Assembly (NCBI GenBank): GCA_009829735.1
Contig: CM020618.1
Coordinates: forward strand, 769,196-833,195
Length of the DNA stretch: 64,000 bases
From: Pyropia yezoensis
Taxonomy: Eukaryota > Rhodophyta > Bangiophyceae > Bangiales > Bangiaceae
Direction: 5' to 3'
The notes beneath the pieces are model-generated. The model was not told the DNA's origin. It saw nothing but the letters and a program-made list of their open reading frames with translations, and ran no database searches. The position numbers were made by a program, and so were the translations under genes. Shown here piece after piece: positions 3,785-59,783 of the stretch (positions are counted from its first letter, which is position 1; each line of letters starts with the position of its first letter).

Positions 3785-3788
3785 CGTT

Positions 3789-7228: not shown

Positions 7229-7901
7229 TCAGTGGGTAGACCCACTGCCCGAGGGAGGCCACTCACGCGTAAGCGCGTAGACCTCCGTGCTCCACCGGTC
7301 GGCAACGTCACGACGGTCGACCACCCGAGTTACCTCGGTGCATAGCTGGACGAGGGTGCTGCGGCCAGCCTCCACGTCCTCCAGAGCTTTCTGGAGGCGG
7401 TCCACCACGCCACCGAAGCAACGCGCTGACCCAACCAGCGCAGCACCTGGGGGGATATCCCCCCAGCTAACAGAGAGACCCCCACGCATTGCGCGGGTAT
7501 CAAGGGCGTCAACGCCTTCATACCAGAGACGGGGACCCCCGTCATGTAGGACAGGGGCGGGAGGTGACACTGGCGCAGCCAGAGGAGCCACAGGAGCCGA
7601 CACGGCTACCACCGGAGCCGGTGGCACCTGATACGAGGCCCGGTAGGACCCTACCGAAGGGGCTCCACCGTAACCACGGCGGTACTCCGCCCGACGACGG
7701 GACACCTCACGCTCCCCACCCACAGAGCCCCACTCTCGGGGACGACGGCCTACCGCCGCCGGCATCGGGTTACCGAACCACGGAGCAAGGACCTGAAGAG
7801 GGTCATGGATAACAATGGGAATACCCAGGTCAGCAACAGCCTCGGTGGATGCCCACCCATGGCAACTGGGCTCACCCGGCTGAGTACGCCGGACACACAA
7901 C
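7229..7901 (-). pseudogene. Family A antisense ORF, C-terminal part
   Basis: An open frame runs on the strand opposite to family A gag-pol and ends at 7229. Its last ~110 codons resemble the C-terminal part of the antisense ORF of family C (57479-59026): both have a VVDR segment in a predicted helix, then an R/Q-W-S motif ending in basic residues (VVDRLQKALEDVEAG and RWSTEVYALTREW here). The upstream part is cut off by the family B LTR at 7902, so codons beyond that point belong to the LTR and should not be counted. No known domain is recognised. Confidence 0.55.
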
Positions 7902-8369
7902 TGTGGCAAAAACCACTCGCACACACGGTACCCAAGTTGGGGCGGTGTGCGAGGGCTGCCTCCCGTGTCGGGGGAACCGGAAGAAGTGCAAGTCGCACAC
8001 ACTCGATCCCTGTTGTGGGGCAATCCCCCCACGGACAAACAAGAAGATGGTGTGTGGTCCAACAGTTTCTTGGTCGGGACGGGGACGCAGGGCCAAGCCC
8101 CGCTGTCCCTCCCCTTATCCCCCCAGGGTCCACTCAGAATCTCGCCACTCAGAATCTCCCACCCCAGCACCTGCCCACCGGGCCACACGAAAATTCAAGA
8201 CGATAAATGCAGAAAACCCTCAAATCCAAGTTGGATTTACTACTAAGCTAACTATCCCGAACTTAGGGAATATGGACCCAAATGCAGGGGGAGGAACGGA
8301 TCAGGTTAGTGGCCTGCCGCCCCTTGCATGGCACGTGTTGCCCCCTACCTGGGGGTCAATACTGCCACA
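7902..8369 (-). repeat. Family B 3' LTR (468 bp)
   Basis: On the minus strand it starts TGTGGCAGTATT and ends TTTTTGCCACA, giving the inverted ends TGTGGCA/TGCCACA. It matches the LTR at 31020-31487 over its full 468 bp with roughly four visible base differences. It contains a 17 bp odd palindrome at 8222-8238. The outer flank is ACAAC (7897-7901). Confidence 0.92.
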
Positions 8370-8384
8370 CTCCCCTCTCCTCAG
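8370..8384 (-). promoter_or_regulatory. Polypurine tract of family B
   Basis: The minus strand reads CTGAGGAGAGGGGAG immediately before the LTR start TGTGGCA. A purine run at exactly this place is the plus-strand priming site of LTR retrotransposons. Confidence 0.8.
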
Positions 8385-8901
8385 TTCCGACCGACCCGGT
8401 CGGCCCTGTGAGGGGGTGCGTAAACGCACGTCTCGGCGGGGGGGGGGACGCGACTTGCTGTCCCCCCTTGAGTACGTAACGCGGATGTGGAGGCGGTCAC
8501 GTTGGCCGCCCCTCTTCTCAAGCTTGCCCACTTGGCAGCTTGCTCTCCTCGGTTCACACCTCACCACCACCACCACTTCTCCTTCACCTTACACGGGGCC
8601 ACCCCACGCTGGGGAGGCCACCCGTTTACCCACGATCCGAGTCCCCCTCAACTCGAGGCGGGTCTCGTGCCGCGATAGCCAGGACGTCTCTCCCCAACTT
8701 GGGGAGAGCCATGGCGACTCCGGGAGTGGAGACGGACTCTCTCGATGAGCGTATGGAGGACACCTCCTACGGTGCAGCGCCTGCCGGGACTTCCGGTGGG
8801 GGCTCCGCGATCGCTCCGGGGGGTGGGACTCCCGCGTCACCCGGCTTTGGGTTGACGGCAGGATCTCCCCGGAGGCGGGACAAGTTGTCCCGCGTGAGGC
8901 C

Positions 8902-10653
8902 TTGGGGCGGTGGTTTTACCCCGCTTGGCCTCTGTATGAGGAGGGGTTGACTGTTCTTCGCTGTGGCCGACTCGGCGCAGCGATGGGTCGGGTATGGGAC
9001 CGCCTACGGGAGAAGTATCCCCGTAGGGTCGGGTTCCCTGCCGGCTTCAGGACGGACCAGTTTGCCTTCCTGGACGACGAGGAGGTCGAGGGCGTGCAGC
9101 GGGCCAAGGCCATGGTGGACCGCGGGGGAACTATCCCGGGTCCCGGCGACTTGCCGACCTTCACTTGGGACGCGGTGGCAACTCGCCCCCCGTACCTTCA
9201 CGAGGCCGATCCGCACACTCATCACTTTGATGTGCGGATGGAGAAGGACTTCCGGCGAGGTCCCTACTTGGTGACCTCGGCTCAACTTGAGTTTCCCCAG
9301 CAGTCTGCTGCCAGTAAGGAGCAATACTACCCGAAGAAGCCCGAGTGGTGGCCTCAAGTTGAGGTCCCCTACGGGTTCCCGGCATTGTTGCCACGGTTGC
9401 TTGACCACTTCGGCTCCGTCATGTTGACGGCTGGCCCTGATCATCTGGTGTGGGCCATGTTGGCCACCCAGTGGCTCCTCGAGGTCATGTCGACCTGGGT
9501 GTCATGTGTTGAGCGGCGGGGGATGCTCTGGCATCTCCCCCTCCGGCTCATCCAGGGTTTGGAACAGCTCACCCCTCAGCTAGTTGCTGAGGGGTGCTCG
9601 TCAGGACAACTCACTCTACTTGAGGAGATGCTCCGCCTCCACAAGTTTATCGAGTGGGAGAGCATTGAGCACAAGTTGCGCCGCCCCACTCGGGGGCCCA
9701 AGGACGATGGCGCACTTCGCCAGTTCGTGTGGGTCGCTCGTGAACTTCACGACGGCCGTGTGGTCCTACGAGAGGGGTTGGGCATCGGGGACTACACGTA
9801 TGCCCCGGGGGTGGATCGTCACACTGCGCCACCCCCGGACAAGCCCATAGTTATGGCTGTGCCCTCATATGATGACCATATGACTCAACCTACTGCGGGG
9901 GCCCCAAGTCGGGGTCGCAGTTACACCCGGGTACCGCCACCTCGGCGTGCCCCTCCGCTTCCTCCTGTTCCTTTCCAGCCTCACGGGAACATCCCGATCA
10001 GCGTGGCCGTGGAGTCATCCACACCGGTGTCTCCCAACTTGGGGGCCACCCTCCTGACGGTATACCCCAAGTTGGTGTTACCGCCCACGCCTCTGACCTC
10101 AGAGATGATGATCACCACGTTGGTGCGCACCATTTCCTGGTTGGCCGCGTCGACCGCAACCCTCCAAAGTTCCGAGACTCCTCAACTTGAGGAGCGCGTT
10201 CGTACTGCAGTGGCGACCGCGAGTTGCGAGTCGGTGGCGGAGTTTATGACGGCCGAGTTGGCTCGCATTGGGGCTATTATGCCCCAGCCAACCCCACTTG
10301 GGCGTGGCAAGCGTCGTGCGAGCCGGGCATACTCGCCTCCTCGCCGTCGTCGCCGTCACTCGCGGCGCTCTCCCTCCGTGTCGGAAGACGAGTTGTCTTA
10401 CTCCGTCTCGGAGTCCTCTACCCCATCGGAGACGGAGTCTGTCCAGCGTCTGCGTCGCAAACTTGCGCGCAAGACCAGGCAGAAGAGTAGCCACGGTCGG
10501 CGCCACTTGCGCGACCGTGAGGGGCGCGACGGTTCCGACTTGGAGCCGCCGCCCCTTCCAACGAGTGGAGACCGTTATCGGCGTGGGTCTCGCCGCTCGC
10601 CTCCACGTGAGGGCGAGGGCCGTGGAGTGGGAGAGTCTAGCATGCGTGCCTAG
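8902..10653 (+). CDS. Family B antisense ORF, 583 aa, RS-rich tail
   Basis: A long open frame lies between pol and the 3' LTR but on the opposite strand. The first ~330 residues look globular and Trp/Leu-rich (LVTSAQLEFPQ at about 122-132, YYPKKPEWWPQVEVPYGF at 142-159). The middle is Pro-rich. The last ~115 residues are Arg/Ser-rich like splicing-factor RS domains (SPPRRRRRHSRRSPSVSED, then more RS and acidic Ser). The globular part resembles the antisense ORF of family C (LVSCNHQEFWK, YYPKVIPQQQEVEIPVGF). There is no signal peptide or membrane segment, so an envelope is unlikely. The ATG at 8902 may not be the true start, as the same frame is open further upstream without an ATG. I know no named domain for it; function unknown. 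Confidence 0.7.
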   Translation: MGRWFYPAWPLYEEGLTVLRCGRLGAAMGRVWDRLREKYPRRVGFPAGFRTDQFAFLDDEEVEGVQRAKAMVDRGGTIPGPGDLPTFTWDAVATRPPYLHEADPHTHHFDVRMEKDFRRGPYLVTSAQLEFPQQSAASKEQYYPKKPEWWPQVEVPYGFPALLPRLLDHFGSVMLTAGPDHLVWAMLATQWLLEVMSTWVSCVERRGMLWHLPLRLIQGLEQLTPQLVAEGCSSGQLTLLEEMLRLHKFIEWESIEHKLRRPTRGPKDDGALRQFVWVARELHDGRVVLREGLGIGDYTYAPGVDRHTAPPPDKPIVMAVPSYDDHMTQPTAGAPSRGRSYTRVPPPRRAPPLPPVPFQPHGNIPISVAVESSTPVSPNLGATLLTVYPKLVLPPTPLTSEMMITTLVRTISWLAASTATLQSSETPQLEERVRTAVATASCESVAEFMTAELARIGAIMPQPTPLGRGKRRASRAYSPPRRRRRHSRRSPSVSEDELSYSVSESSTPSETESVQRLRRKLARKTRQKSSHGRRHLRDREGRDGSDLEPPPLPTSGDRYRRGSRRSPPREGEGRGVGESSMRA

Positions 10654-10764: not shown

Positions 10765-13525
10765 TCACGTTGAGGGAGGGCTGTTAGGGTCTATCTCGTT
10801 CCGGGCACAGTACGCCCGGACCTTCTCAGCAGGAAGGTCCTCCACATACTCCCACGTATCATCCTTGGCTTTGTAGCCAAACCAACGCACCCTCAACATG
10901 AGGCGGTCAGTATCCTCATCCCAGCCGTGGTCGATGAACTTGTCGAACACGTACTCCTGCGGGCCCTGTTTGGCTGCAGGCAGCGAGGGCAGGCGCCACG
11001 TTTTCAAAGCACGCGCCCAAGCTGGGTCGCCTGCAGGCGGTGGTGCAACTTTGACCACGTCCTGTCCGTTCACTGTGCGGACCCCATCGTCACTTTCGAT
11101 GGTGAAGCGCCGCCCATCAGTACGAAGGACCTGGTACGGCCCCTTCGTCTGGAACACCAACTTACCCCCAGTTGGGGTGTGTGAGTGGACCAATACCCAG
11201 TCACCCTGCTCGGGGACATGCTTGGCGTTGCGCACCTTTTTGTCAAAGGTACGCTTGTAGCGCTTTTGTGCTTTGTCCATCTCAGCCCTGACTTTAGGGA
11301 TGAGGTTTTCAAGCCTAGCAGCGAACTCCGCCTTACTCTCAGTAGGAGTGGGCGTACTGCCACCATCCTCCCTAGTTGGGAGCGGCCGCCGCACGGCAAT
11401 AGACCGCACGCGACGGGGGGTCACAAAAGCGAGGGGTACTTCCCCGGTAGATGAGTGAACCTGCGAATTGTAGGCAGTGGTCAGAATAGAAATGTATTGG
11501 TCCCACGTCTTCACGTGCTCACTCACATAATGGCGCAGCTGCCTAACAATAGTTTTGTTGAAGCGCTCCACCTGCCCATTAGTTTGTGGGTGGTAGGGGG
11601 TGGCATAGTTTGCCTTAACCCCCAACATATCCAGCACTCCTTGAAACAGTACAGACGCAAATTGCGGTCCATTGTCCGATAGTGTACTATCCGGAATGCC
11701 ATACGCGGCAACCCAGTGATCTAGGAAGGCTGACACGACCGACATGGCCGTGATCTCTGCCAGTGGGATCGCTCGCGTAAGTTTCGTGAAGCGGTCACAG
11801 ATGACCAGGAGGTACTGCTTGCCCTCCTCGGTCACTGGCAGTGGCCCAAGGATGTCCATTGCCAACGCGGCAAAGGGCTCCTTGGCCGGGAACAATAGCA
11901 TAGCCGTAGTAGGCCGCCGTTCCATCAGACGGTTCTGTGCACAACTTGTGCAGGCAGCCACCCAACTGTAGATGTCCACCACCATGGACGGCCAGTAGTA
12001 CCTGGTCCTCAGGGTCTGGTACAGTTTACTAGACCCCAGGTGTCCACCCGTGGGAGCGTTATGCTCCCTCTCAAGGATACTGTCCTTGAGGGATGCGGGG
12101 ACGACAAGTTGTTCGGTCCCCTGGAATACCCCCCTCCTCATGAGGAGGCCATCGTCTCCCAGGAAGAACCGCGTCTCCGCCACTGTATCCAGGGTATCCC
12201 TCTGCGACTTGCAGAAGGGATCCTCGGCCTGGGCCTTCACTACTTCGTCCAGGGACAGGGGCAAGTACTTCTTGTTCCCTGGCGCCTCGGGATTCAACGC
12301 CTGACCCGAGCGCGTGACTACCCCCACGATGGGGATGTCCTCATCGACTGGGGTGGTGTCCAGTCCCTCGGTAGGTACCCGAGAGAGGCCGTCGGCAAGG
12401 GCATGTTGCCTGCCAGGTCGGTACTCAATATCAAAGTTGAAGGGTGCAAGTCGCACCCTCCACCGGTTGAGACGAGTGTTCGTACAGTCCGTCTTGAAGA
12501 TGAACTGCAACGCGCGGTGGTCACAGCGGATGAGGAACTTCTCACCCTCTAGGTAGTGACGAAGTGACGTCACCGCCCATACCACTGCGAGTCCTTCCAA
12601 CTCGGTGACTCCGTAGTTCTTCTCGGCCGAGTTTAGCCCCTTGCTGAAGTATCCCACCGGCAAGTACTCCTTGTCCGGCTGTTGCTGAAGCAACACACAA
12701 CCAAGTTGGTCGTAGCTAGCGTCCACATCCAGGATGTAGTGGCCTCCCAACCTGGGAATAGCCAGGATAGGGGGCTTCAGCAGAAGGTCCCGAAGAGTCT
12801 CAAAGGATTCCTGCTCCACCCGACTTGGGGGAGGCAGGTTCTTCGGTAGCGTTGAGCTCACTAACTCATTCAACGGCTTCGCCACTTTGGCGAAGCCCTT
12901 AGTGAAACGTCGGTACACGTTACACATCCCGAGGAAGCTCCTCATCTGGGTCTGGGTCCGGGGGTACTGAGCCTTGCGGATGGCCCTCAAGTTTTTCTCG
13001 TTGACACTGAGACGCCCCGGACGGACAACATGTCCCAAGTACTCCACCTCTTGAGTGAAGAGGTGGCACTTACTCGCCTTCAGTGACACTCCGGCGTCAG
13101 CAAGTAGCTTGAACACCTGGCCAAGATGGCCAATGTGTTCCTCCGGACTTCGGGAGAACACAATGATATCGTCTAGGTACACGAGACAGATCTGCCACCG
13201 TACTCCGGCCAGAATCATGTCCATAGCGCGCTGGAAAGTTGCCGGCGCGTTACACAGGCCAAACGGTAGACGCTTGCACTGGTAGGTACCACAGTGACAG
13301 GTAAGGTAGTTTTTATGCCTGTCCTCCGGGGCAATGGGAATTTGCCAGTACCCCGCGTTAACAGTCCAGGGTAGAGAACACGTTTGCCCCCCCAGAGAGT
13401 CCAGACAGTCATCCATCCGAGGTAGGGGATAACTATCCTTCACCGTGCTCTCGTTGAGCTTACGGTAGTCGATACAGAGCCGGGGGGTCCCATCAACTTT
13501 GGGGACGATCACCACCGGACTCGCC
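10765..13525 (-). CDS. pol: Family B pol, RT to chromodomain (partial)
   Basis: About 920 codons run open from the gap edge to the stop at 10765. In order: RT ([52 protein letters not shown]), RNase H (YILDVDASYDQLGCVLL, YFSKGLNSAEKNYGVTE, ALADGLSRV), integrase zinc region (LEREHNAPTGGHLG ... CTSCAQNR), DDE core (AMDILGPLP, LSDNGPQFAS, QTNGQVERFNKT) and a chromodomain (FIDHGWDEDTDRLMLRVRWF, then KDDTWEYVEDLP). RNase H and integrase lengths look normal. All motifs are typical of Ty3/gypsy chromoviruses. The N-terminal part is lost in the gap. Confidence 0.93.
13155..13525 (-). repeat. RT stretch duplicated at 27366-27736
   Basis: These 371 bases reappear almost unchanged at 27366-27736, on the other side of the LINE contig and its two gaps. 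The few differences are mainly single-base length changes. It is either an unrecognised contig overlap or the same segment of two copies of family B. Confidence 0.9.
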
Positions 13526-14025
13526 NNNNNNNNNNNNNNNNNNNNNNNNNNNNNNNNNNNNNNNNNNNNNNNNNNNNNNNNNNNNNNNNNNNNNNNNNNN
13601 NNNNNNNNNNNNNNNNNNNNNNNNNNNNNNNNNNNNNNNNNNNNNNNNNNNNNNNNNNNNNNNNNNNNNNNNNNNNNNNNNNNNNNNNNNNNNNNNNNNN
13701 NNNNNNNNNNNNNNNNNNNNNNNNNNNNNNNNNNNNNNNNNNNNNNNNNNNNNNNNNNNNNNNNNNNNNNNNNNNNNNNNNNNNNNNNNNNNNNNNNNNN
13801 NNNNNNNNNNNNNNNNNNNNNNNNNNNNNNNNNNNNNNNNNNNNNNNNNNNNNNNNNNNNNNNNNNNNNNNNNNNNNNNNNNNNNNNNNNNNNNNNNNNN
13901 NNNNNNNNNNNNNNNNNNNNNNNNNNNNNNNNNNNNNNNNNNNNNNNNNNNNNNNNNNNNNNNNNNNNNNNNNNNNNNNNNNNNNNNNNNNNNNNNNNNN
14001 NNNNNNNNNNNNNNNNNNNNNNNNN
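13526..14025. other. Assembly gap, 500 N
   Basis: Fixed-size gap between family B copy 1 and the LINE contig. The two sides are unrelated sequence, so continuity across it is not shown. Confidence 0.99.
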
Positions 14026-14914
14026 CGCGCCCGCCCTGGCCTTGATCACCTTGAGGATGTACCGGTAGATGCCGCTGCCGCCACCGAGTCCCGCTGCCGC
14101 ACCACCTTCTCCAACCGCACCGCCCGCAACAGCCCCAGCAGCACCACCCCCACCACCACCAGCACGCACACCACGGCCAGACCCACCAGCCCCCCCCCGC
14201 CAGAAGCCGGACCCCCACCAGCAGCAACCGGGCCGCCACCACCAGCACCCCCGCGGCCGAGGACGGCCGACGCCGCGACGCCCCGCCCAGCAGCCCCAGC
14301 AGCCGCAACCGCCGCCCAGCTGCGACCCGCCCCACCCGAGGGCCGCACAGAAGAACCCCCGGCCGCAGCCGGGGCGCCAGCCACCGAGGAAGCCGCCGCG
14401 AGGGCCCCACAGGCAGAAAGGAGAGCAGAGGGGGACCGCCCACCAGCGGCATCCGCCCCCCCACCGCCGCGCCCAACCGGCCCCACCGGCGCCACCGCGC
14501 ACGAAAGGGTAGAGGGGGGCGGGGCCGAGCCAGCCCCGCCGCCCCCGGAGGATAAGCTCCTCTGGGGCGCCCCCAGGGGAGCGCCCAACACCGACGCTTC
14601 ACCCCCCCCGGAAGCGCCCACCCCCGAAAACGGCGCAGAAGCGCGCGCCAGAACCGAAAGATCAGGTGGCGACACCCGGTTTTCACCAGATGCCGCCACC
14701 TGATTGGCCCATAATTGGGCAAAAACCGCCGTCAGTAATTCGGACCGGCGCCGAAAATTCGTTTTCGACGCCGGCCCGACCGCGACGTCGACAACGGCGT
14801 CCACGCCGCGCACCACCGACACCAAAACGTCCCGATCCAGCCCCATACCGCCCCGAGCGACCAAACCAAAGCGGTGGGGGGGTGAACCTCACCCCCCCAC
14901 ACCGCTAGGTCGTC
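14026..14914 (-). mobile_element. LINE unit A, 5' end only
   Basis: Nearly identical to the 5' end of unit B (21865-22758). It starts just after the tail of unit B and runs into the gap at 14025. It includes the start of the 5' ORF (ATG at 14864, MVARGGMGLDRDVLVSVV). One short low-complexity difference is visible near 14070-14200. Confidence 0.85.
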
Positions 14915-14954
14915 AAGAAACCGTCAAAAACGACCCGCTAGGTCGTCAAGAAAC
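14902..14954 (+). repeat. Unit junction: 20-mer repeated 33 bp apart
   Basis: CCGCTAGGTCGTCAAGAAAC occurs at 14902-14921 and 14935-14954, as part of a 33-34 bp imperfect direct repeat that also carries a CAAAAACGA motif. It lies at the join between the tail of unit B and the start of unit A. The same pair is at 22746-22798. It may be the trace of a target duplication or the recognition site for insertion. Confidence 0.8.
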
Positions 14955-14971
14955 ATCCAAAAACGAACGTC

Positions 14972-15050
14972 TAACGGAGAAGGGGCTCGAACCCTTGACT
15001 TTCGTTCCTAACTACTACCGAGGATCAACTCCTCCTGACTAGGTCCCACT
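14972..15050 (-). other. tRNA-like 3' tail of LINE unit B
   Basis: On the minus strand, after the ORF2 stop, there is a tRNA T arm: stem AAGGG/CCCTT with loop TTCGAGC (14980-14996). It includes a perfect B-box match GGTTCGAGCCC. It is followed by CTCCGTTA, like an acceptor strand with discriminator A, and a T5 run (14959-14963) as in Pol III terminators. I could not find a matching 5' acceptor strand or a full cloverleaf, so it is tRNA-like, not a tRNA gene. The identical tail ends unit C. Confidence 0.6.
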
Positions 15051-15051
15051 A

Positions 15052-18000
15052 TTACTCACCAATTGAAACCCCCACGCTCTCACACCCCAAGGGACCCTCC
15101 AAACCCATCCCAGCCGGGTCCTCCACCCCAAAGCACCGAGCGTACCCATCGGCCACGGCACGGGCGTTGGACCGCCACAGCGCCACCGAGATGGCGCTGC
15201 GCAGCCGCGCCCGCGCCGTGGCCAGGCGGGGACCCCCAAAGGTGTCCCGCAGCCACGCCGCAGTGGCGGGCCCAACCCGCCCGTACACCTCCCACACCAG
15301 TGGGGTAAAGACGTGAGCGGGCGGGCCAGCGGGGAGGGCGCGGGCGTAGCGCCCCACCTTGACGCCCTCCCGCGTCTCGGCCGCCACGGGCGCCAGCGGG
15401 GTGCCAGCCACCCGCGGCGCCAGCACAGACGAAAAGGAGGACGCCACAGAGACGTCCCCCCAGGTCACCTCCCCCCCCCCCACGCGGGTGGCCCGGAAGT
15501 CAGGGCGGAGGGAGGCGCGGGAGGTGTCCAAACCCACCTCCACCACCACCTCCCCCCACCCCTCCGCCCGGCGCAGCGCCCCCGCTACAAGGTGCACCAC
15601 ATGGTGGTGCAACCGCGTGTGGCGGGGGCGCTGCTCGGGGCAGGCCGACAAAAAGTGGCGCCCCGCGGCATCCGCGGCCGCCCCACAGCGACAGCGGCCG
15701 GCCGGTGGCGACGACCGCGGCGCCACGCCGAGCCACAGCCGCACAGCCGTGCGCATCGCCACCCCCGGGATGGCCGTCCCATCCAGCCCGGGGGTGGGCA
15801 GCGCCGACAGCCAGGCGGCGGCGCCATGCCCCTGGCACGCCGCCATGCCCGCGCGCTGCCAGAGCGAAAGCTCTGCGTAGATGCGCGCTCGGGCGGCGGC
15901 GTGCGCGGGCAGCGACAGGTCCCGCTGGGACGCCCGCACGTCCCCCCCCCCAGCAGCCCCCGCCACGACAGTGGCACGTGCGGCGCCGGGCCGTGTAGGC
16001 CGTCGGCCGGTGTCCCAGGGGTGGCACCGGCGCCGCACAGGGGGGCGAGAGGGGAGGGGGGGCGGGCGGGGGGAGCCAGCGGGTCGCCGCCGCTAGGGGC
16101 GGGCGCGCGCGGCGCGGGCCGCGGCCGCACCCATAGCACGCCGCTGGTGGGGGCGGCACAGTGGGCCTGCTGGGCTGCAAGCAGCTCCAGCAGGCCCCCA
16201 CACAGCTTCGCGGACGCGGCCGTCGGCGGCGGCGGGCGGGACGAAAGTAGCGGCGGGGGGGTGGGGGGAGGAGGTGGGCTCGCCGGCACGACCCACTCAA
16301 ACTCCACCTCCTCCCCATCGGGGCCCCACCCCCACCAGCGCTCATGCGGGGCGGCCTCGGCGCTGGGGCGGACGCCCGCAGGATGCTCGGGGGCCGCCGG
16401 CGCGGCAGCGTCAGCTACCCCAGCTGGGGTGGAGGCGGTGAGCGCCGGTGGCCGCGCGGGGGGGCGCAGCGGCGCGCGGGCGGCCGGCCGCGGCGGCGGC
16501 CGGCGGGGGGGGGGGTCGAACAGGTGCCGTCCCTGAGGAACCCCCCCCCCCCGCCACCGCCCACTCGTCGTTGCGGCGCTGCGCCGCTTCGTCACCCCCC
16601 CCGACACGCCCCCAGGGCGTCGGACAGCCAGGCGGGGCGGCGCGGGGCGGGGGGGAGCTCCCCCGCCGGGCGGGCACGGGGGCACGACGCCGCCGTCCGC
16701 CGCTGCCACCGGCAACCGCAGCAGGTCGTCGCGGATGGCGGCGAGGGCGGGGGAGTAGGCGGCGCCGGCGCGCAGGGCGTCCACCCAGGACGCCAGCGCC
16801 GCCGCCGGCAGCACACGCGCCCTCCCCCCAATACCCAGCCCCCCCATGGCCGGGGGCAGCGCCGCGCGGTCCGCCACCGCCGTCCGCGTGGGGTCGCCGT
16901 CGCGCGCGTCGCACAGCAGGGCGAGCAGCACCTGCTGCGCGTCGCGGTCGACGGCGCCCGCGAGCCGCGCCCCCCACACCAGCGGCAGGGCGCGGAGCCA
17001 GTAGTTGGCCCGCGGGCCCGCGCACAGGCGCAGCAGCAGCAGCTGCGCCTGCAGCTCCGCCGGGGGGAGCGCCGCGATGGCGGCGGTCAGCCGCCCGTGC
17101 TCGGCGGCAAGGGCATCCACCCCCGCCGCCACGTGGGCGTCACAGCCGAGGGGAACAGAGAACTGCGTCAACCCCTCGGCCGCCCACGTCGCCGGCCACC
17201 CCGCCGGAGCGGGCAGCCCAGCTGGCGACCAGCCAACACACTTGGCTGGCGCCAGCTCGGCGTCGACCGCCCGGCCCAGGCGGTCGGCGTCGGCGAGCGC
17301 GGCAGGGAGGGAGGCGGGCGGGCCAACCACGACCACGTCGTCGTGGAAGGCCCGCACCAACAGGTCGGGGTGGGCGGCAGCAAGCCGGCGCAGCACCAGC
17401 CACAGCGCGGCTGCGTGAAGCAGCGGGCCTAGCGGGTCACCCTGCTGGGCGCCCCGCTCGGCCTGCAGCACCAGCCTCCGTGGCGCGGCCAGCACCGCCC
17501 GGCCCGCGTCGCGTTCCTCCCCCCCTCCCCACCCGCCGCGCCGTCAGCCGCTCCCCCCACCGCATAGCCGGCCCCCCCCGCGCCCCCGTCGCGCTCGCCG
17601 CAACCGCCCTCCGCCGTCCCGCCGTCGGCGCCTCCGGGCGCCCAGCCGTAGACAGGCGGCGCCGCCCCCCCCCCCTCCCCCCCATAGACCCACTCGAGGT
17701 AGGGGGACAGGACGGGGAGGGCCCGCGACAGCACCGCCCACGCGGCCGCACGCGACACGAGGTTGAACGCGTTCCGGAAGTCGAGCTGGAGGAGGGCGTG
17801 ATGGGGGTGGAGAGCGAGGTGGGCCTCCAGCTCGTGGAGCATCCGCTCACACGCGCTGGAGACCCCCACCCCCATCTGCAGCGGCGCAAAAAGCGCCGCC
17901 GCAGCCCCCCGCACCGACCGCGCCAGCGCCGCGGCGACGAGCTTGCGCAGCGTCTCCGGCATGCCAATCGGTCGGAGACCCGGCAGGCCGTCCGCCTGCA

Positions 18001-22708: not shown

Positions 22709-22745
22709 ACCAAAGCGGTGGGGGGGTGAACCTCACCCCCCCACA

Positions 22746-22798
22746 CCGCTAGGTCGTCAAGAAACCGTCAAAAACGACCCGCTAGGTCGTCAAGAAAC
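22746..22798 (+). repeat. Unit junction: 20-mer repeated, second copy
   Basis: Same pair of CCGCTAGGTCGTCAAGAAAC copies (22746-22765 and 22779-22798) as at 14902-14954, exactly 7,844 bp away. It lies between the tail of unit C and the start of unit B. Confidence 0.8.
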
Positions 22799-22815
22799 AT
22801 CCAAAAACGAACGTC

Positions 22816-22894: not shown

Positions 22895-22895
22895 A

Positions 22896-31017: not shown

Positions 31018-31019
31018 AA

Positions 31020-34334: not shown

Positions 34335-34369
<35 letters not shown>

Positions 34370-39129: not shown

Positions 39130-39133
39130 TCAA

Positions 39134-50698: not shown

Positions 50699-51270
50699 TG
50701 TAGCATCCCTGGCCCCGACTTGGCGCCGACCCGGGACTACAACCAGAGGGCACCAGGTGCCAGAACACGCCCGCCGTGTGGCGATGGTTGGCGGCCGTGG
50801 CCCGTGCCCGGCACTGGGATGCGGTGGACTACGCTATCCACACGCGAGAGAGGGATTTCTGATGTGTTTTTGCATATTTGTGAGGGACTTGATTTGAGAG
50901 AATTTGAGTGTGAGATTAGTGAGTGGGAATAGAATTAGTAGTGATAGTGGCCCCCGACCTGACGAGGTTAGACTCGGGTCGGGGCCACTCGGGGTTATGG
51001 GGGGGCTACCGGGCCAACGTGCCGGGGTTCCCCCAGATGCACGTTAAGAGGGACAGCGAGGCGCCCTCGGCCCGCGCCCTCAGGGAAAAAGACAACTGCG
51101 CGTTTGCTTTCCTCTTCCCCGTGTGCACTACCGTGCGTATCTGTTTGCCCTGCGAGCAGGCACGTGAGGCAACAGGCATACCATTCTCGTAGTTCCCCTT
51201 TCTGCGTTACCTGTCCCTTTCCCCCGAGGGATATTGACACGTGTCTGAGAGGATCGAGTTTTATACCACA
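50699..51270 (+). repeat. Family C 5' LTR (about 572 bp)
   Basis: Starts TGTAGCATCCCTGG and ends TTTTATACCACA before the primer-binding site. The start is fixed by the 3' copy at 59787. The left flank is satellite LTR sequence (GCGCAAGCCACGG). Confidence 0.88.
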
Positions 51271-51274
51271 TATT

Positions 51275-51484: not shown

Positions 51485-53245
51485 ATGGCTACCCTCCCTG
51501 GCACGACGGTGCCCGAAGGGGTAGACCCCGCGTCCCTTGACGCATCCCTGGTCACCGCGGGGGACGGTGCCCAACCCGGCGTTCTCCCTACGGGTGAAGC
51601 AGACCTGGGCGTGACATCCGGTAGTGGACTGGAGTCTACAGGCGGCCAAGTACCGCCTGCTCCCGTTCCTCCGGCTGTTCCTCCTGTGGGAGCCACCCCG
51701 GGGTCAACGGCGTTTGAGTCAGCTCGCAGCAGACGTCTCCCTCCTGTCGGTTCTACTCTTCAACCTCCAGGGATAGCCCCTGGTGTGTTTACTCCTGGAC
51801 CCACACATGGCAGCTGGGTGTATACACCTCTTCCTGTGGGCACTAGCAGTGCCAGAGGCACCGCTATGACTGGTTCTACGGGTCTTCCTGAGACTTCGAC
51901 TCCTGGGACCGGCCAAGCTTTTCCTCCCCTTGCGTCCTATGGGGCGGGGAGCTCCAAGACCGGTGACCGGAGCAGCCGTAGGCGTCGGCGTCGTCGCCGC
52001 CGCTCTAGCACCAGCGAGACCAGTTCCTCCAGCTCTGAGGAGGGATATGACTGGGATGCATCTCCCGGTCCTACCCGGCGCAGGCTAGTCGAGTTCGACT
52101 TCCCTGCCCACCAAGTGGGAGATGCCACCCTGAACAAGGTCACGTATTGGGGTAACTACCGGCTGGAGAACCAAGACCAAGGTTACACCCGGAAAATGGC
52201 CAAGAAGATGGCATCCCTGAACCGGCGAATGCAGCCGAGCTTTGGGGGACATCCTAAGTTTTCCGGGAAGAGACCGGCGCTTATCTTTGCCTTCCTGCGC
52301 CGGTTTGTCAAGGCATGCAATGACAACGATGTGTCCGAGGGCAAGGCTCTCTATCTCCTGGTTAACTTCATGACCGGAGAAGCGGAACAGCGGTTTGCAC
52401 AGGTTCTACCAGACTCTGCCGGGCACATTGTTGGACGTACCGTCGCGAGTTATCCGGAGGCGGTCAACTGGCTCCTGTCCAACTACGCAGACGCGGACTC
52501 CCTGCGTAAGGCAGTCGGTAGGCTGAACCGGGCAACCATGGAGAGACAAGAGACTCCAGAGGCGTTCGCCCGTCGTGTCCGGGAGATGAGCGATGCTTGT
52601 GGCAACGTTTACCCTGAGGACAGGCTCAAGATGATCTTCTCGGAGGGGCTTCCTGAATATCTTCAAGTGGATGCGGAGAACTACAACCAGGAACATCAAG
52701 AACATACCTTCCAGCAGTTGATGGCCTACACCCAGGGCAAGCACCGGCAAGCCAAGGCCCTCCAGGCTCCTATGGTATCAACTCCCAAGCCGTTGTCGCG
52801 AGTTCGTCCCGGACCCGACAAGTATAAGGGAGGTGATAACCCTGTACCGGTACTCGCAGTTGGCGAGGCCTCACCCATGGAGTCAAGGGACAAGTGGGGC
52901 GGCTTCGTTTCTAAGGAGCAACCTTCCCTGGTCGCCCCCAAGCAGATCAGGAACCAGCGGTTCCGGTCTTGCTGGCTGTGCCAGAAGGAGGATCATATGT
53001 CCTACCAGTGCCCGACCATTCCCGAGGATCTCCAGGAGAAACTCAAGCGTCAAGGACTGGTGTTTGCAAAGGCGGTCAACTGGGCTGACCGGCGGGCACC
53101 CTCCAAGATGGACAAGGCACAGGTACATGCCATCCGAGTGGCAACCTTACAGAGCATCACGGAGGCTCTGGCAAGGGAAGCTCCTACGGACTTTGACCTG
53201 GAGACCGAAACCTCTAAGGACTCCTCGGAGCCGGGAAACGAGTAG
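51485..53245 (+). CDS. gag: Family C gag, 586 aa
   Basis: Starts MATLPGTTVPEG. The first ~150 residues are Pro/Gly/Thr-rich, followed by an Arg/Ser run (RSSRRRRRRRRRSSTSE) and an acidic Ser stretch. The capsid-like region follows with KFSGKRPALIFAFLRRFVKA and ETPEAFARRVREMSDACGNV, the retrotransposon gag pattern. A zinc knuckle CWLCQKEDHMSYQC (C-x2-C-x4-H-x4-C) lies at about residue 495. It ends 92 bases before the first ATG of pol, and pol is in another frame. Gypsy elements commonly make pol by frameshift or by separate initiation; which is used here is not shown. Confidence 0.92.
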   Translation: MATLPGTTVPEGVDPASLDASLVTAGDGAQPGVLPTGEADLGVTSGSGLESTGGQVPPAPVPPAVPPVGATPGSTAFESARSRRLPPVGSTLQPPGIAPGVFTPGPTHGSWVYTPLPVGTSSARGTAMTGSTGLPETSTPGTGQAFPPLASYGAGSSKTGDRSSRRRRRRRRRSSTSETSSSSSEEGYDWDASPGPTRRRLVEFDFPAHQVGDATLNKVTYWGNYRLENQDQGYTRKMAKKMASLNRRMQPSFGGHPKFSGKRPALIFAFLRRFVKACNDNDVSEGKALYLLVNFMTGEAEQRFAQVLPDSAGHIVGRTVASYPEAVNWLLSNYADADSLRKAVGRLNRATMERQETPEAFARRVREMSDACGNVYPEDRLKMIFSEGLPEYLQVDAENYNQEHQEHTFQQLMAYTQGKHRQAKALQAPMVSTPKPLSRVRPGPDKYKGGDNPVPVLAVGEASPMESRDKWGGFVSKEQPSLVAPKQIRNQRFRSCWLCQKEDHMSYQCPTIPEDLQEKLKRQGLVFAKAVNWADRRAPSKMDKAQVHAIRVATLQSITEALAREAPTDFDLETETSKDSSEPGNE

Positions 53246-53337: not shown

Positions 53338-56300
53338 TTGCCTGCTCAACCGGTAGCCGCCTGGACACCCTGTTTGTTCAAGGGGACCTTGCTCGTCCTG
53401 CGTAAGGAAAACCTCAAGATTAATGCTCGTATGCGTGTGGGGGATAGCCTCCCCCAAGCTGTTACGCCGGTGGTCGACACGGGAGCCGGACCAAGCGTCA
53501 TCACTGAGAACCTGTTACCTCCGGGCTGGCGTCGACATGCCTGGAGAGCGCCTACCAAGACCCGGGTTGTAGACGCATCAGGTCAAACCCTACGACCGCT
53601 TGGCCGTCTTCCCGTCGCCATCTATGTCAACAATGAACCAATGCTTTTTCCCTTTCTAGTAGTCAAGACCTTATCAGTCCCCCTCATCCTAGGCTGGGAC
53701 TTCCAGAAGCAGCATGTCAAGAGCATCCTACCCGGAGAAGGAAAGGTGCAGTTCAACCATGGGTTTGTGTCACCAGTGCTGGAGCACCTGGACACCAAGG
53801 TTCGTGTGGCCAAGAACCAGAAGGAACGCATCCCACCCTCTACCTTGACCCTCATCAAACCGGTGCTCCTACCTCCTCGCTCGGAGACCAAGGTTCAAGT
53901 CACGACCCGGACTGCAGGTCAATGCCTGATCTACGGACGCAAGGAATTTCTGGCGAAACACCGATTATACCTAGCCCACGGACATCACAAGAAGGTGGAG
54001 AGGCACACCCCGTTCTCGGTGCTGATCGTCAACGTGAGCCGGAAGCCAATAACCCTCGCCAAGGGCACTCGAGTTGGTACAGCAGAGCCTTACCGGGGGT
54101 CCGCCCGCGCTATGAGCAAGGAAGACCTCTTCAACCTGCAACAAGAGCTGGCATCCAACTTGACGGCCTTAGACGTATCTCCGGAACAAGAGCAGGCTGG
54201 CCGTACTACTCCGAAGCCGGAACAAGCACCGCCCGGGATGCCGAAGGTCAACCAAGAAAACGTCCCTCCCGACTTGAAGGAGGCACTGGAGAAGCTTCTC
54301 CAGGAATATCGGCACCTGTGGTCTGGAGAGCTGGGCAAGATGGACGCCACCCTACACCGGATTCAACTCAAGCCAGATGCCAAACCAGTGCACATGCACC
54401 CATACCGGGCTGGACCTCATCGCCGGGATGAGATTGAGAAGCAGGTTAACAAGATGCTCAAGATGGATGTTATCGAGCCGTCTGATGGCGAGTGGGCTTT
54501 CCCGGTGGTAGTCGTCCCGAAACCTGGCGGTCACTTCCGTTTCTGCGTTGACTACAGACGCCTGAACGAGATGACAGTCAAGGATGTATACCCGATACCC
54601 CGGATGGATGATTGCCTCGACTTTCTTGGTGATGCCACCCTCTTCTCGACGCTGGATTGTAATGCCGGTTACTGGCAGATCCCTCTGGCTGACGAGGACA
54701 AGGACAAGACTACCTTCACGTGCCACATGGGACTGTTCCGGTGCAAGCGTCTCCCTTTTGGTCTCACTAATGCTCCGGCAACCTTCCAGAGAGCCATCGA
54801 CATCATCCTGTCGGGGCTAAGGTGGAGAACATGTTTGGTCTACCTGGACGACATCATCGTTTTCTCCAAGACCCCAGCGGAACACCTGGAGCACCTTCGA
54901 GAGGTCCTGGCCCTCCTGTCCAAGGCTGGAGTTACCCTCAAGGCCGAGAAGTGCCACCTGTTTGAGACTGAGGTGGAGTACCTGGGGCACGTGCTGAGTC
55001 CGGGGGAGCTCCGAGTCAATGAGAAGAACATCAAGGCCCTCCGGCATGCACGGCAACCTAAAACCCAGACGGAACTCAAGAGCTTCCTGGGTATGTGCAA
55101 CGTCTACCGCCGGTTCGTACGGGACTACGCTCTGATTGCCCGGCCCTTGACCAAGCTTACTAGCAAGAAGCTTCCAGCACAACTCCCGGTGTTCGACGAG
55201 AAGCAGACAGCAGCCTTCGAAGAGCTCAAGAAGCGCCTGACCACCACTCCAGTACTGGCGTTACCCAAGCGGGAGGGTCAGTTTGTTCTGGAGACTGACG
55301 CCTGTGGCGTCCAGGTGGGGTGCTCACTACTCCAGCAACAACCTGATGGGCACTTCCTCCCGATAGGCTACTACAGTCGCGTCTTGACTCCAGCCGAGAA
55401 GAACTATTCCACGACCGAGCGCGAGTGCTTGGCGGTCGTCTGGGCTTGCTTCCTGTTACGTCCATATCTTGAAGGACAAGAGTTCCTCATCCGGACGGAC
55501 CACGCCAGTCTAAGGTGGCTGCTATGCATGGACAGCAGTCAAGGAAGGGTCGCCCGGTGGCGCCTACGCCTTTCGGAGTTCAAGTACAAGGTGTGCACCA
55601 GAGCAGGGAGGGAGCACCACTGCGCCGACACCATGTCCAGGCTGGAGACTCCTGCAGCCGATACCGGTCCTATCCCGGAGGAAATACCTTGCTTCATCCT
55701 CCCGAATGTCGGACGTGGCTGGCACGCTCCCCTGTACGAGACACCTGACGCTCATCAACCGGTAACCATTCACCGGATGCTGGAGGCACAATTGACGGAC
55801 CCTCAATGCTTGGAGCTTCGCCACCAAATGGACCTGAACCGGAACAGTCGCTTCTCCGAGTCTACAGACGGACTCCTGGTACGGGTGTCACCCTTCGATG
55901 GGGCAACTCAAGTCTACGTACCCCGGAGCCTACGGACTGACATCCTACGCCTGGAGCACTCGTCTCCCCAGGCCGGACATCCTGGTATCAATCGGATGTA
56001 TGCTTCCATGAGACGACATTATTACTGGGAAACCATGGCCAGTGACGTCCATAAGTGCCTGGAGGCTTGTATTTCTTGTGCAAGGAACCGGTTGTCCCAG
56101 AGGAAGAAGACTTCTAAGCTACGCCTATTCCCTGCGGCGGAGCCCTTTGCAAGCTTAAGCATGGACATCCTGGGGCCCCTACCTGAGACCTCCAGTGGCA
56201 ACATATACCTGCTCATCATTTGTGACCGGTTCTCCAAGTTCACTCGAGCAATCCCGTTGAGAACCATCACGGCTCTGGATGTCACGTCGGCCTTCTGCGA

Positions 56301-57333
56301 GTACTGGATAGCTGCCTACGGCCCTCCAGACTCCGTCTTAACCGACAACGGTCCCCAGTTTGCATCCCTGTTCTTCCAAGGAGTCTGTGACCTGATGGGC
56401 ATCAAGAACTTGTACACCACGACGTACCACCCTCAAACGAACGGTCAGGTGGAACGATTCAACCGGACCCTAGTGGACATGCTACGGCACTACGTGGAGG
56501 AGCACCAAGAAGACTGGGACGAGCTCCTGGCTGTCCTCACTCTAGCCTACAACTCCCGAGTTCACCGGACAACGGGAGTTGCTCCACTCGACTTTGTCAC
56601 CCCAAGGCGGCTGACCAACTTCTCCCTGGAAAGAATACCGGATGGTCTCCAGCCTGCACTGAAGTCAGGTCCCAAGGCAAAGGATGAGTTCCTGGAACAA
56701 CTAAAGCTCCTGCTCCCAAGAGTCAAGGAGTCAATCTCAAAGACCCAGGAGCGATACAAGCGGGACTATGACAAGGGTGTCCGGGAAAAGAACAAGGAAC
56801 TGGGTGGTGGCGACTGGGTTTTTGTGGACAACCATAGCAAGACCCGGGGGAAGCTGGACTCTAAGACGGATGGACCTTATGAGATTCTCAATACGGATGG
56901 CTGGACCTTCCTTCTAGACGTGGATGGCTCTCCGTACCGGGTGAGCAGCGACCATGTCACCCGAGCTCCACCGCCAAGCCAACGGGACTTGACCCGGCGT
57001 AAGCGGACTGCGATACCCTTGCTATCCCAAGAAGAAGGTCGGGAATTTGTCTACGTCAAGTTTGTCGACCATGCCTGGAGAGATGGACGCCTGTACCTGC
57101 GAGTACGCTGGTTCGGTTTCAACCCGGCAGATGATACCTGGGAACCCTCAAACCGGCTACCCATCGCGGACGTCTGTGCCTACACGCGACGGAACGGGAT
57201 TGAGGGCACTCCCGTGGCCAGAGCCGGCAAGATTCTGGAGTCGGACACGGAGGAGAACCAAGAGGACGGGGCCAACCAAGACCCTCGGGACGAGACGAGC
57301 TCACCCGCAACGGATGCGGAACAAGAGGATTGA
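53338..57333 (+). CDS. pol: Family C pol, 1331 aa, with chromodomain
   Basis: Protease DTGA is at residues 47-50, with the second motif PLILGWDF near 120. RT shows [37 protein letters not shown] and the catalytic VYLDDIIVFS near 502-505. RNase H shows FVLETDACGVQVGCSLL, YYSRVLTPAEKNYSTTEREC and HHCADTMSRL. Integrase has the zinc region (LEHSSPQAGHPG, then CISCARNR, about 871-920) and the DDE core: SMDILGPLP near 941, LTDNGPQFAS near 1000, QTNGQVERFNRT near 1035. The C-terminal chromodomain reads FVYVKFVDHAWRDGRLYL, RVRWFGFNPADDTWEPSNRL (about 1237-1290). All catalytic boxes are present and the frame is unbroken, so it looks whole. The actual start may lie upstream of this ATG. Confidence 0.96.
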   Translation: MPAQPVAAWTPCLFKGTLLVLRKENLKINARMRVGDSLPQAVTPVVDTGAGPSVITENLLPPGWRRHAWRAPTKTRVVDASGQTLRPLGRLPVAIYVNNEPMLFPFLVVKTLSVPLILGWDFQKQHVKSILPGEGKVQFNHGFVSPVLEHLDTKVRVAKNQKERIPPSTLTLIKPVLLPPRSETKVQVTTRTAGQCLIYGRKEFLAKHRLYLAHGHHKKVERHTPFSVLIVNVSRKPITLAKGTRVGTAEPYRGSARAMSKEDLFNLQQELASNLTALDVSPEQEQAGRTTPKPEQAPPGMPKVNQENVPPDLKEALEKLLQEYRHLWSGELGKMDATLHRIQLKPDAKPVHMHPYRAGPHRRDEIEKQVNKMLKMDVIEPSDGEWAFPVVVVPKPGGHFRFCVDYRRLNEMTVKDVYPIPRMDDCLDFLGDATLFSTLDCNAGYWQIPLADEDKDKTTFTCHMGLFRCKRLPFGLTNAPATFQRAIDIILSGLRWRTCLVYLDDIIVFSKTPAEHLEHLREVLALLSKAGVTLKAEKCHLFETEVEYLGHVLSPGELRVNEKNIKALRHARQPKTQTELKSFLGMCNVYRRFVRDYALIARPLTKLTSKKLPAQLPVFDEKQTAAFEELKKRLTTTPVLALPKREGQFVLETDACGVQVGCSLLQQQPDGHFLPIGYYSRVLTPAEKNYSTTERECLAVVWACFLLRPYLEGQEFLIRTDHASLRWLLCMDSSQGRVARWRLRLSEFKYKVCTRAGREHHCADTMSRLETPAADTGPIPEEIPCFILPNVGRGWHAPLYETPDAHQPVTIHRMLEAQLTDPQCLELRHQMDLNRNSRFSESTDGLLVRVSPFDGATQVYVPRSLRTDILRLEHSSPQAGHPGINRMYASMRRHYYWETMASDVHKCLEACISCARNRLSQRKKTSKLRLFPAAEPFASLSMDILGPLPETSSGNIYLLIICDRFSKFTRAIPLRTITALDVTSAFCEYWIAAYGPPDSVLTDNGPQFASLFFQGVCDLMGIKNLYTTTYHPQTNGQVERFNRTLVDMLRHYVEEHQEDWDELLAVLTLAYNSRVHRTTGVAPLDFVTPRRLTNFSLERIPDGLQPALKSGPKAKDEFLEQLKLLLPRVKESISKTQERYKRDYDKGVREKNKELGGGDWVFVDNHSKTRGKLDSKTDGPYEILNTDGWTFLLDVDGSPYRVSSDHVTRAPPPSQRDLTRRKRTAIPLLSQEEGREFVYVKFVDHAWRDGRLYLRVRWFGFNPADDTWEPSNRLPIADVCAYTRRNGIEGTPVARAGKILESDTEENQEDGANQDPRDETSSPATDAEQED

Positions 57334-57478
57334 GAAGAAGGGAACGGGTATATCAAGGATAACACGCAACGCAAGCATGGAACAATCAAGGAAAACAAGC
57401 ACCCGCTCGAGCAACCCTTCTCTCCGCCTCTTCCCTCCTCGCTTCTCCCAAGACCCTCACCCTCCCTGCCTCCAACTA
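57334..57478. other. Convergent intergenic stretch of family C
   Basis: 145 bases between the pol stop and the antisense ORF stop. It is C-rich with several CCTC runs. No clear hairpin like those of families A and B is seen. Confidence 0.5.
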
Positions 57479-59026
57479 CTACTCTCGGCGCGGACGCTGA
57501 GCCGCGGGAGTGTCCTCCGGCGCTATCTCCGCGGTACGACGGGAACCGGAGGAAGACGGGATGACGTAGTGCGGTGGACGCGGCGCATCCCGGTATGACG
57601 CCATCGGAGTAGTACCAGTAGTTGCCGGTGGCTCCCGCTCATCCAGATATGTCCGTCGGCGCCGCTGGAAGCCCGTGAAGGTCTCTGACCACTGCTGGGC
57701 CAGGCCATGCCGCGTCAAAGTCGCCAGAAGTTCGCCAACCACCGGGTTGTTCGACATCTGGCCGCTGTCCGCGCAAGCAAACACCCGGTCGACCACGTCG
57801 TTCAAGACACTGGCGTAAGTGCCCAGCACCAGGGAGGACCCGACGCCTTCAACCTGCACCGGAAGACGACCCAGCTGGTCTTCAATCATGCCGACGTCGT
57901 ACTGGTCGCATGTTGGACCACCTTGGTTCAGGTACCAGTCAGGCACCCGGAAGCGGGTGAGGCGCAGAGTCGGCGCCGGAATCTCGAACCGGCCCGAGGA
58001 TGACACTACCGGACGGTCCACAACGGCCCCCGAGACCGGAGTACCCAACTCCAGCGGAGGCACAGCGCCGCCGGCGTTGGAAGAAGGCGTCCGGGGTAGA
58101 GCGGCCGGAGTAATCGGCGACCGCACGGCCACTCCCAGACTCGCCGCAGACAAGCGCGGTGCCGGAGGAGCTTGAAGTACTGGCACAGCCGGAACAGGGC
58201 GCGGACGTGCCGGTGACGGTTCAGGCGAGGCGACCGGGGCGACAGGGGCAACCGGAGGAAGCGGAGCCGCCGCAGACGCCCGACCGACCGCCGCGGCCCA
58301 TCCCGACTCCTGCACCGGCGGTCCAACTGGCAGAAGATCAAGGGCGGCCGGAGCAGGAAAGCTACCTAGCTGCGGCCACGCCGGAAGCGGCGTCGCCAGC
58401 TGCACCTTAGCCGGAGAAGACTGGTAGACCACCTGCGCCCAACCGTAGCCATCCCGACGCGGGCGGTTCTGGTCGGCAATCGCGTTCAAGAAGTTCCGGT
58501 CATGCACCGGCACCAGACGCCGGAAGTCGATCATCGCCTGGAAGAGCTCCTTGTACTCCTCGTCCTGGCTGCACAGGAAGTCGACGGTCAACTTGTCGAC
58601 AATCCAGACCATCAGGAGGTCAGGGAGAAACCAAAGCCGGTTGGACACCAAGACCTCATGAAGCCAGTGGTTGGCCGCCAAGACTGTCATCTCGGACGTG
58701 TACATCATGTACGGGATTGAATGGAAGAAGCCCTTGATCGACGCCTGAGTCAAGGCGTCCAAGAAGTACCAGGTGCAAGGGATGCTGGAAGGAGCAAACC
58801 CGACCGGGATCTCGACTTCCTGCTGCTGCGGGATGACCTTGGGGTAGTATGCCGCCCGGTTAGCCTTGTCCAGCTTCCAGAACTCCTGGTGGTTGCAGCT
58901 TACAAGGAAGTCACGCTGACGCCCGCGTCGCTCACCCTGCTCCCGTGCCGGCGACAACTTGGAGTATTTCCGGGTCAAGAAAGGCGGCTCCAGAGCGACC
59001 ATGCTCGGACGGGGGTCGCAGTTCAA
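57479..59026 (-). CDS. Family C antisense ORF, 515 aa
   Basis: An open frame lies opposite to gag-pol between pol and the 3' LTR. The N-terminal half looks globular (DFLVSCNHQEFWK, YYPKVIPQQQEVEIPVGF at 60-77, HWLHEVLVSNRLWFLPDLLM). The middle is Ala/Pro-rich and the end has a helical block (SSLVLGTYASVLNDVVDRVF) and a basic tail. Related protein sequence continues upstream to ~59.7 kb in another frame (YSTVVGNAGAAQCQQDCMDL), so the antisense gene is longer than this ORF, with about one or two breaks or a splice. It resembles the family B ORF in the globular part and family A in the C-terminal block. No signal peptide, membrane helix or known domain. Confidence 0.7.
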   Translation of the reverse strand: MNCDPRPSMVALEPPFLTRKYSKLSPAREQGERRGRQRDFLVSCNHQEFWKLDKANRAAYYPKVIPQQQEVEIPVGFAPSSIPCTWYFLDALTQASIKGFFHSIPYMMYTSEMTVLAANHWLHEVLVSNRLWFLPDLLMVWIVDKLTVDFLCSQDEEYKELFQAMIDFRRLVPVHDRNFLNAIADQNRPRRDGYGWAQVVYQSSPAKVQLATPLPAWPQLGSFPAPAALDLLPVGPPVQESGWAAAVGRASAAAPLPPVAPVAPVASPEPSPARPRPVPAVPVLQAPPAPRLSAASLGVAVRSPITPAALPRTPSSNAGGAVPPLELGTPVSGAVVDRPVVSSSGRFEIPAPTLRLTRFRVPDWYLNQGGPTCDQYDVGMIEDQLGRLPVQVEGVGSSLVLGTYASVLNDVVDRVFACADSGQMSNNPVVGELLATLTRHGLAQQWSETFTGFQRRRRTYLDEREPPATTGTTPMASYRDAPRPPHYVIPSSSGSRRTAEIAPEDTPAAQRPRRE

Positions 59027-59773
59027 GCTTCCCGACCCCTTGAGCGCCTCGTCCCAGACCTTGAAGCGCCCGGTGGACGTACCCTTCCTCCTCCGGCCAC
59101 CGGAGAACGGACGCGGACACGCGACGCTCGGTCAAGGGTAGATCCAGTACCAGCGCGAAGGGGAGATCCTCCAGACGAGCAGCCCAAGAGGAACCCGAGA
59201 AGCTCTGGGAGCGGTCTTGTGCCAGGCGCATCTGGTCCGCCGTATGAAGACGTGCCTTGTCCATCTCGGTCAAGACCCCGCGCTGGAGTTCCTTGCGCCA
59301 GAGGTCCATGCAATCCTGCTGGCACTGGGCCGCGCCGGCGTTGCCAACCACCGTGGAGTAACGCCGGGCCGCCAGAGGGTCCTGCCCAAGGAGCATCTCC
59401 GGGAGACCCTCCGGGGGGGGCCTCGACCGGGTGCATCGCGGAAGCCGGGGGAACTCGATCCGTCCCCGCCGTGGCGACCGGCGCCGGCACCGACATCCGA
59501 GGAACCGGAGGCAGGAGAGGGGCACGACGACCCGAGTTCTCCTCCGCAACACTCGCCGCCGGAACCACGGGCCCAGCTTGGATCTCGGAACTGGACATAC
59601 CCGTCCAGACTCCGGGGAACGAGAGGGCCAAGGTGAAGGAGCGGAGGGGGGGGGGGGCAGAATCGGGGCAGGTGATCGTGACCGGGGTGAAGACGCTCGA
59701 CCTCGGCACCGGTGTGGACGTGCTCGAGGCTGTGCACGGTGGCACCTGGTTCGGCCCGAGGACGTGCCGGACT

Positions 59774-59783
59774 AGGGAGGGAG
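59774..59783 (+). promoter_or_regulatory. Polypurine tract of family C
   Basis: AGGGAGGGAG lies three bases before the 3' LTR start TGTAGCAT, the usual place of the plus-strand primer. Confidence 0.75.

Follow-up and report, generated by a model that had tools for sequence, protein, structure and literature searches.

An antisense protein gene between pol and the 3' long terminal repeat of likely chromoviruses in the red alga Pyropia yezoensis

The stretch of DNA analysed here (the window, 64,000 bases; C1:769196-833195 of the 107.48 Mb Pyropia yezoensis assembly, the whole of which was used for genome searches) carries members of three families, A, B and C, of Ty3/gypsy long terminal repeat (LTR) retrotransposons. 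As an earlier note on the window had pointed out, in each of them an open reading frame (ORF) lies opposite to gag-pol and convergent with pol (Table 1). The pol-to-antisense spacings given there are correct for B (111 bases) and C (145 bases), and the 480 bases given for A hold good in other A copies (about 480, e.g. L041 and L042) but not in the window, where the A pol ORF ends early (6343). The window ORFs of B and C do resemble each other as claimed (BLASTP E 2e-8, 23% over 166 amino acids), whereas the motif match proposed between A and C is not significant alone (E 0.045), and no similarity was found between the window ORFs of A and B (BLASTP E 2.9). The window A ORF has no significant match to B or C because the conserved core is absent from it. 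Nor are the window copies intact: the A gene is cut at 7901, and those of B and C are frame-shifted near the N-terminus, being open for just 79 and 191 codons, respectively, from the ATG. The window matches A copies L042 and L057 no further than 7901 and its match to B copy L010 starts at 7902, so that the break in the A antisense gene coincides with the beginning of element B.

Copies elsewhere in the genome were counted among the best-scoring candidates only and are no fair sample of all copies. In a search with the A-fragment protein (best 125 of 4676 candidates scored) 73 of the 125 lay in open frames of at least 900 codons; with the B protein (best 75 of 3553) 72 of the 75 lay in frames of exactly 724 codons and all 75 lacked a stop inside the query; and all 40 scored in a C DNA search (best 40 of 580) cover the whole 1548 bases at 99-100%. 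Protein-family candidates scored number at least 150 for A, at least 150 of B type and at least 124 of C type. Longer antisense frames are open in non-window copies: 909 codons in many A copies, 724 in B and about 780 in C. From the first ATG the proteins would be about 815 (A, 909 codons less 94), 647 (B) and 705 (C) residues long. The B length is seen in copy L010, with 724 codons open, and the C length in copy L001, whose antisense frame is open throughout; across seven further C copies the frame measures 761 to 846 codons from stop to stop. A G run lies at window 59646-59657, about 130 bases from the C 3' LTR and between that LTR and the antisense ATG, and the varying length of the C frame may reflect length changes at this run. 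Measured from the inner 3' LTR border, which for A was taken from one shared match, the distance to the ATG is about 228 (A), 345 (B, as in L010) and 188 (C) bases; the other end of the gene is about 111-480 bases away from the pol stop. All three families place the gene alike. Its product begins with a Pro-rich part, followed by a core of about 180-210 residues that is conserved across families; the tail varies and in B is Ser/Arg-rich (35 Lys plus Arg and 23 Ser in the last 150 residues).

Tests of homology between families used antisense frames from non-window copies. BLASTP detected A-B (E 1.3e-9) and B-C (E 5.2e-8) similarity at scores that none of 500 shuffles reached in either case, while A-C was not detected directly (122 of 500 shuffles reached the score), and a direct A-C relationship through the motifs of the earlier note was set aside as not significant. 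Combined profiles nevertheless detect the third family: with A plus B, C scores 24.2 bits and the best of 1000 shuffles 10.8; with B plus C, A scores 16.7 bits and the top shuffle of 1000 reaches 7.3. The B-only profile is weaker (C 9.0 bits, A 11.8 bits, both above all shuffles) and the A-only profile is marginal for C (6.0 against 5.3 for the best shuffle). As a control, the B profile was run against C gag and C pol and found neither; kinship of the antisense protein with Gag was rejected on this and on an hhalign probability of 0.1%. At the DNA level blastn between families gave matches of at most 31 bases only. Between-family identity is 44-51% for pol and 23-24% for the antisense protein, which is thus less conserved than pol.

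Selection was measured with two older, partly decayed relatives in which the gene is present: L070, 77.8% identical to B in DNA, and L071, 79.8% identical to C. The ratio of nonsynonymous to synonymous substitution rates (dN/dS) in the antisense frame is 0.214 for B versus L070 (601 codons) and 0.225 for C versus L071 (700 codons), with cores at 0.18 and 0.15 and tails at 0.23 and 0.24, respectively. Over the whole gene four of the five alternative frames give 1.25-1.97, and the mirror frame, which has the same third positions, gives 0.36 (B-L070) and 0.29 (C-L071) when its stop codons, 29 (B) and 15 (C) on the reference copy, are skipped. The pol of the C-L071 pair has a dN/dS of 0.172 over 385 codons, so that conservation of the antisense gene in this pair is comparable to that of pol; the B-L070 pair shares just 201 bases of pol, too little for such a value. 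Young copies were each compared to one natural copy per family, leaving out A L039 (the window copy), L040 and L048 (both without most of the region) and the B window copy L009. DNA-chosen C copies (n = 8, five distinct) have 26 synonymous and 4 nonsynonymous changes (P 1e-10), and B copies (n = 29) have 38 and 5, a ratio biased downward as these copies were gathered by protein similarity. For A (n = 27), codons 1-500 of the 724-codon piece, which lay outside the search query, show 57 synonymous and 93 nonsynonymous changes (dN/dS 0.63, P 0.0046), and the core alone (codons 181-500) 39 and 52 (dN/dS 0.51, P 0.0015). The antisense frame is under purifying selection, weaker in A. The earlier proposal of a related antisense gene kept for a long time in three diverged families therefore stands: similarity exceeds that of composition, there are many homologues in the genome, and substitution is not neutral and favours the antisense frame.

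From these results it is near certain that the frame is a protein gene. That Ty3/gypsy chromovirus-type elements carry here an antisense accessory protein gene between pol and the 3' LTR, with an antisense promoter and a product acting in trans in the nucleus, is the reading we favour and consider probable as a whole. Antisense transcription would start from a promoter within either the 3' LTR or the short leader, like that reported for gene23 of maize Grande. The protein, whose core may be helical judging from low-confidence models, would work in trans and probably inside the nucleus, its target being the nucleic acid or chromatin of the element itself. Proposals made for other aORF-3R genes supply the candidate actions: expression, export, or delivery and targeting of the integration complex. 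The data suggest that the elements use a helper protein, and by analogy this accessory protein is possibly nuclear.

Several observations weigh against this reading. All three window copies are broken, the A core is just moderately constrained and the A Pro-rich part (codons 1-180) looks neutral (dN/dS 0.99), and the B within-family ratio carries the bias noted above. The C-only profile did not find A; in ungapped six-frame tblastx the best B-C stretch is in the antisense frame (2e-6), but the antisense-frame match of A-B was not recovered and the best A-C stretch (5e-5, 34 codons) is on the other strand, and with such mixed results across pairs this comparison was discarded as uninformative as a frame control. 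A nuclear or nucleic-acid action draws on the basic tail of B and on analogy, and the tails of A and C are not markedly basic (15 Lys plus Arg in the last 150 residues). AlphaFold on the core (4 and 11 sequences) predicted helices at low confidence (mean pLDDT 38 and 49), and Foldseek with the core models gave no match at E 0.001; its match lists were set aside, the underlying models being of low confidence. An hmmscan of the antisense proteins against Pfam gave nothing above cut-off, with weak DUF6214 and Fer4_19 only, and they had no match in the PDB.

The same constraint could arise if the antisense product limited the element, as a trans-acting inhibitor protein controlling copy number or transposition; we hold this to be unlikely, although the C-pair constraint, at about the pol level, fits both helping and limiting. 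Ty1 encodes its own inhibitor, a convergent antisense placement would suit feedback control, and the families are abundant yet persist (see the candidate and scored numbers above). That the product is an extra structural or particle protein, Gag-like or envelope-like and antisense by happenstance, seems to us very unlikely: its size and predicted helices are compatible with such a role and env genes occupy the same location, but there is no significant profile match to the elements' gag (the hhalign value above), no 19-residue stretch exceeds a hydropathy of 1.55 (maxima 1.2-1.5; for A a 724-residue piece was scanned), and env-like ORFs are sense-oriented (PMC7264820). The earlier note had likewise seen no envelope features and had proposed a role in regulation or in association with RNA or the particle, which remains a candidate role here; of the two marks of the envelope-like class, a transmembrane segment and sense orientation, neither was found in the antisense proteins. 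A role for the antisense RNA, through double-stranded RNA (dsRNA) or small interfering RNA control and with an incidental open frame, is highly improbable and was already disfavoured; dsRNA-mediated silencing is named as a possible role of antisense transcription in a review (PMC7264820), but the changes are concentrated in the third positions of one frame (dN/dS about 0.2) and protein similarity persists between families whose blastn matches stop at 31 bases. Hardly credible, finally, are chance ORFs in GC-rich DNA, of which the window holds many long spurious examples (109 of at least 150 amino acids) but which selection refutes and cross-family homology also opposes, or a recently captured host gene, the best genome matches listed being mostly the high-copy A, B and C series, in searches none of which was aimed at a separate host gene.

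The antisense accessory gene can be set beside known systems. It lies antisense to gag-pol, inside the element and between pol and the 3' LTR, which is the placement of aORF-3R genes, and judged on its sequence it would be an aORF-3R by place and behaviour and a separate family by protein. In this it is like the genes of the plant Tat elements (Grande gene23, RIRE2 and Retand), which according to the available portions of two reports occur in most copies of a family and are conserved like other element proteins (PMC7264820, PMC11963269); gene23 of maize Grande is driven by a promoter of its own and encodes a nuclear protein. It is unlike them in its red-algal host, a pol with a chromodomain-like tail, the lack of a PF04195 match and a protein family of its own. 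Outside plants, Boty of Botrytis cinerea is listed as having an antisense ORF between pol and the 3' LTR, but its host belongs to another kingdom and the likeness is one of ORF location alone. The antisense genes of deltaretroviruses differ from the algal ones in protein type and gene overlap. They are alike, by placement alone, in that a protein gene (HTLV-1 HBZ, HTLV-2 APH-2) is read from the 3' LTR side against gag-pol, to go by the portions available of PMC11963269 and PMC7264820.

In the Retand study, as far as its available text goes, the TRP28 domain (PF04195) occurs in antisense ORFs of 97% of clusters (PMC11963269). A TRP28 identity was rejected for the algal protein: hmmscan of the antisense proteins gave no PF04195 match, and the whole P. 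yezoensis genome gave none at E<=10, in a search that had no positive control (among the control genomes E. coli alone matched, below cut-off). Of the six conserved TRP28 positions given in the accessible part of PMC11963269, only the L34-P46 spacing (12) could be found by eye in B, after a G-F turn; P25, N47 and F55 have no counterpart there and the G21-L34 distance is 9, not 13. By the same inspection A is one residue short of the L34-P46 spacing and C is without a clear counterpart. A single family uniting the core of the red-algal protein with TRP28 of plant Retand, as an ancestral Ty3/gypsy gene spanning red algae and land plants that would now lie beyond profile detection, therefore seems to us distinctly unlikely.

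As to the elements themselves, the Ty3/gypsy order of reverse transcriptase (RT), RNase H and integrase is found, with RT present in B and C and the window part of A starting in RNase H. A match to the chromodomain profile PF00385 lies at the expected integrase C-terminus but below the 25.1-bit cut-off (B 21.1, C 23.1, L071 19.7, A 13.4), so the chromovirus label is likely, not proven. No retrotransposon chromodomain was reported for P. yezoensis from the sequences then available, in the part of PMC3350952 at hand. The earlier note knew of no antisense ORF described for algal chromoviruses, and this is consistent with the open-access titles and abstract starts searched, in which none is described for a red-algal LTR element, most subscription papers lying outside that scope. 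The word 'antisense' is absent from the main text of PMC7423979 and from PMC3350952, PMC2864245 and PMC8752119, and 'additional ORF' from PMC3350952 and PMC2864245, in each case as far as the text was available.

Among the related proteins, P0004 and P0006 are near copies of family members (98% to C and 96% to B, respectively), and P0007, a EukProt protein, matches the P. yezoensis genome at 100% over residues 2-195. More distant are P0005 (57% to C) and P0008 and P0009, which match about a third of B at 66% and 72%, respectively. Among the matches listed P0005 reaches at most 68% and P0009 at most 88% to the P. yezoensis genome, and these two may derive from other species or from copies that the assembly lacks. 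No relative was confirmed in prokaryote (GTDB) genome contigs or viral contigs.

LTR retrotransposons are the predominant repeats of P. yezoensis, according to the available text of the genome paper (PMC7423979), and the parts found in the window are collected in Table 1. Five N runs, each of exactly 500, lie at 1098-1597, 13526-14025, 26866-27365, 37827-38326 and 60170-60669, and ORFs called across them are unreliable since one is inside B pol and another cuts the C 3' LTR. The gag-protease region of family A occurs twice in inverted orientation (1598-3854 and 60670-62926; 97-100% identity in the pieces listed). A further B-type LTR at 31020-31487 has 99.4% identity to the LTR of copy L010; it was rejected as partner of the B element at 7902 because the target-site flanks do not match, and is perhaps a solo LTR or a piece of a rearranged copy. 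Directly before element C there is a tandem array (38327-50709) of at least 14 copies of a unit of about 880 bases. Elsewhere in the genome the same satellite flanks an element of family C (copy L001) and one of family A (copy L069), and as it flanks elements at several sites these may insert into it; a centromeric or heterochromatic nature of the satellite is possible. Blocks of 71-81% GC (14001-26000 and 32001-36000) are sharply unlike the surrounding elements; both of their strands hold very long ORFs that overlap, the longest that crosses no gap having 1149 amino acids.

Table 1. Retrotransposon features of the window, in window coordinates
Feature	Position	Strand	Remark
Family A pol part (RNase H, integrase)	4733..6343	+	Frame ends early relative to other A copies
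Family A antisense ORF, C-terminal 224 residues only	7229..7901	-	Remainder of gene not found in window
A-side ORF of the earlier note	7229-8188	-	Family A share is 7229-7901
Element B 3' LTR, 468 bp, TGTGGCA...TGCCACA (+ strand reading)	7902..8369	-	At break of A antisense ORF
Family B antisense gene	8711..10653	+	Natural ATG 8711; frame shift upstream of 8902, open thereafter to 10653
B ORF of the earlier note	8902-10653	+	
B pol ORF: RT, RNase H, integrase, chromodomain-like tail	10765..14502	-	Includes N run 13526-14025
C 5' LTR, about 572 bp, judged from copy L001	50699..51270	+	
C gag	51485..53245	+	Zinc knuckle below cut-off
C pol: protease (below cut-off), RT, RNase H, integrase, chromodomain-like tail	53338..57333	+	
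Family C antisense gene	57479..59598	-	ATG 59598, 188 bases from 3' LTR; frame shifted in window copy
C ORF of the earlier note	57479-59026	-	
C 3' LTR	59787..60169	+	Truncated by N run 60170-60669

It is selection, and not ORF length, that indicates that an antisense gene of an LTR retrotransposon encodes a needed protein, and it does so here in a red alga, a host far from the flowering plants and fungi in which such genes have been noted without a known function. The candidate counts suggest that this uncharacterised protein family has at least several hundred copies in the nori genome, and the 44-51% pol identity among the three families is enough divergence to find functional residues. It is possible that antisense accessory genes have a wider place in the biology of Ty3/gypsy elements.

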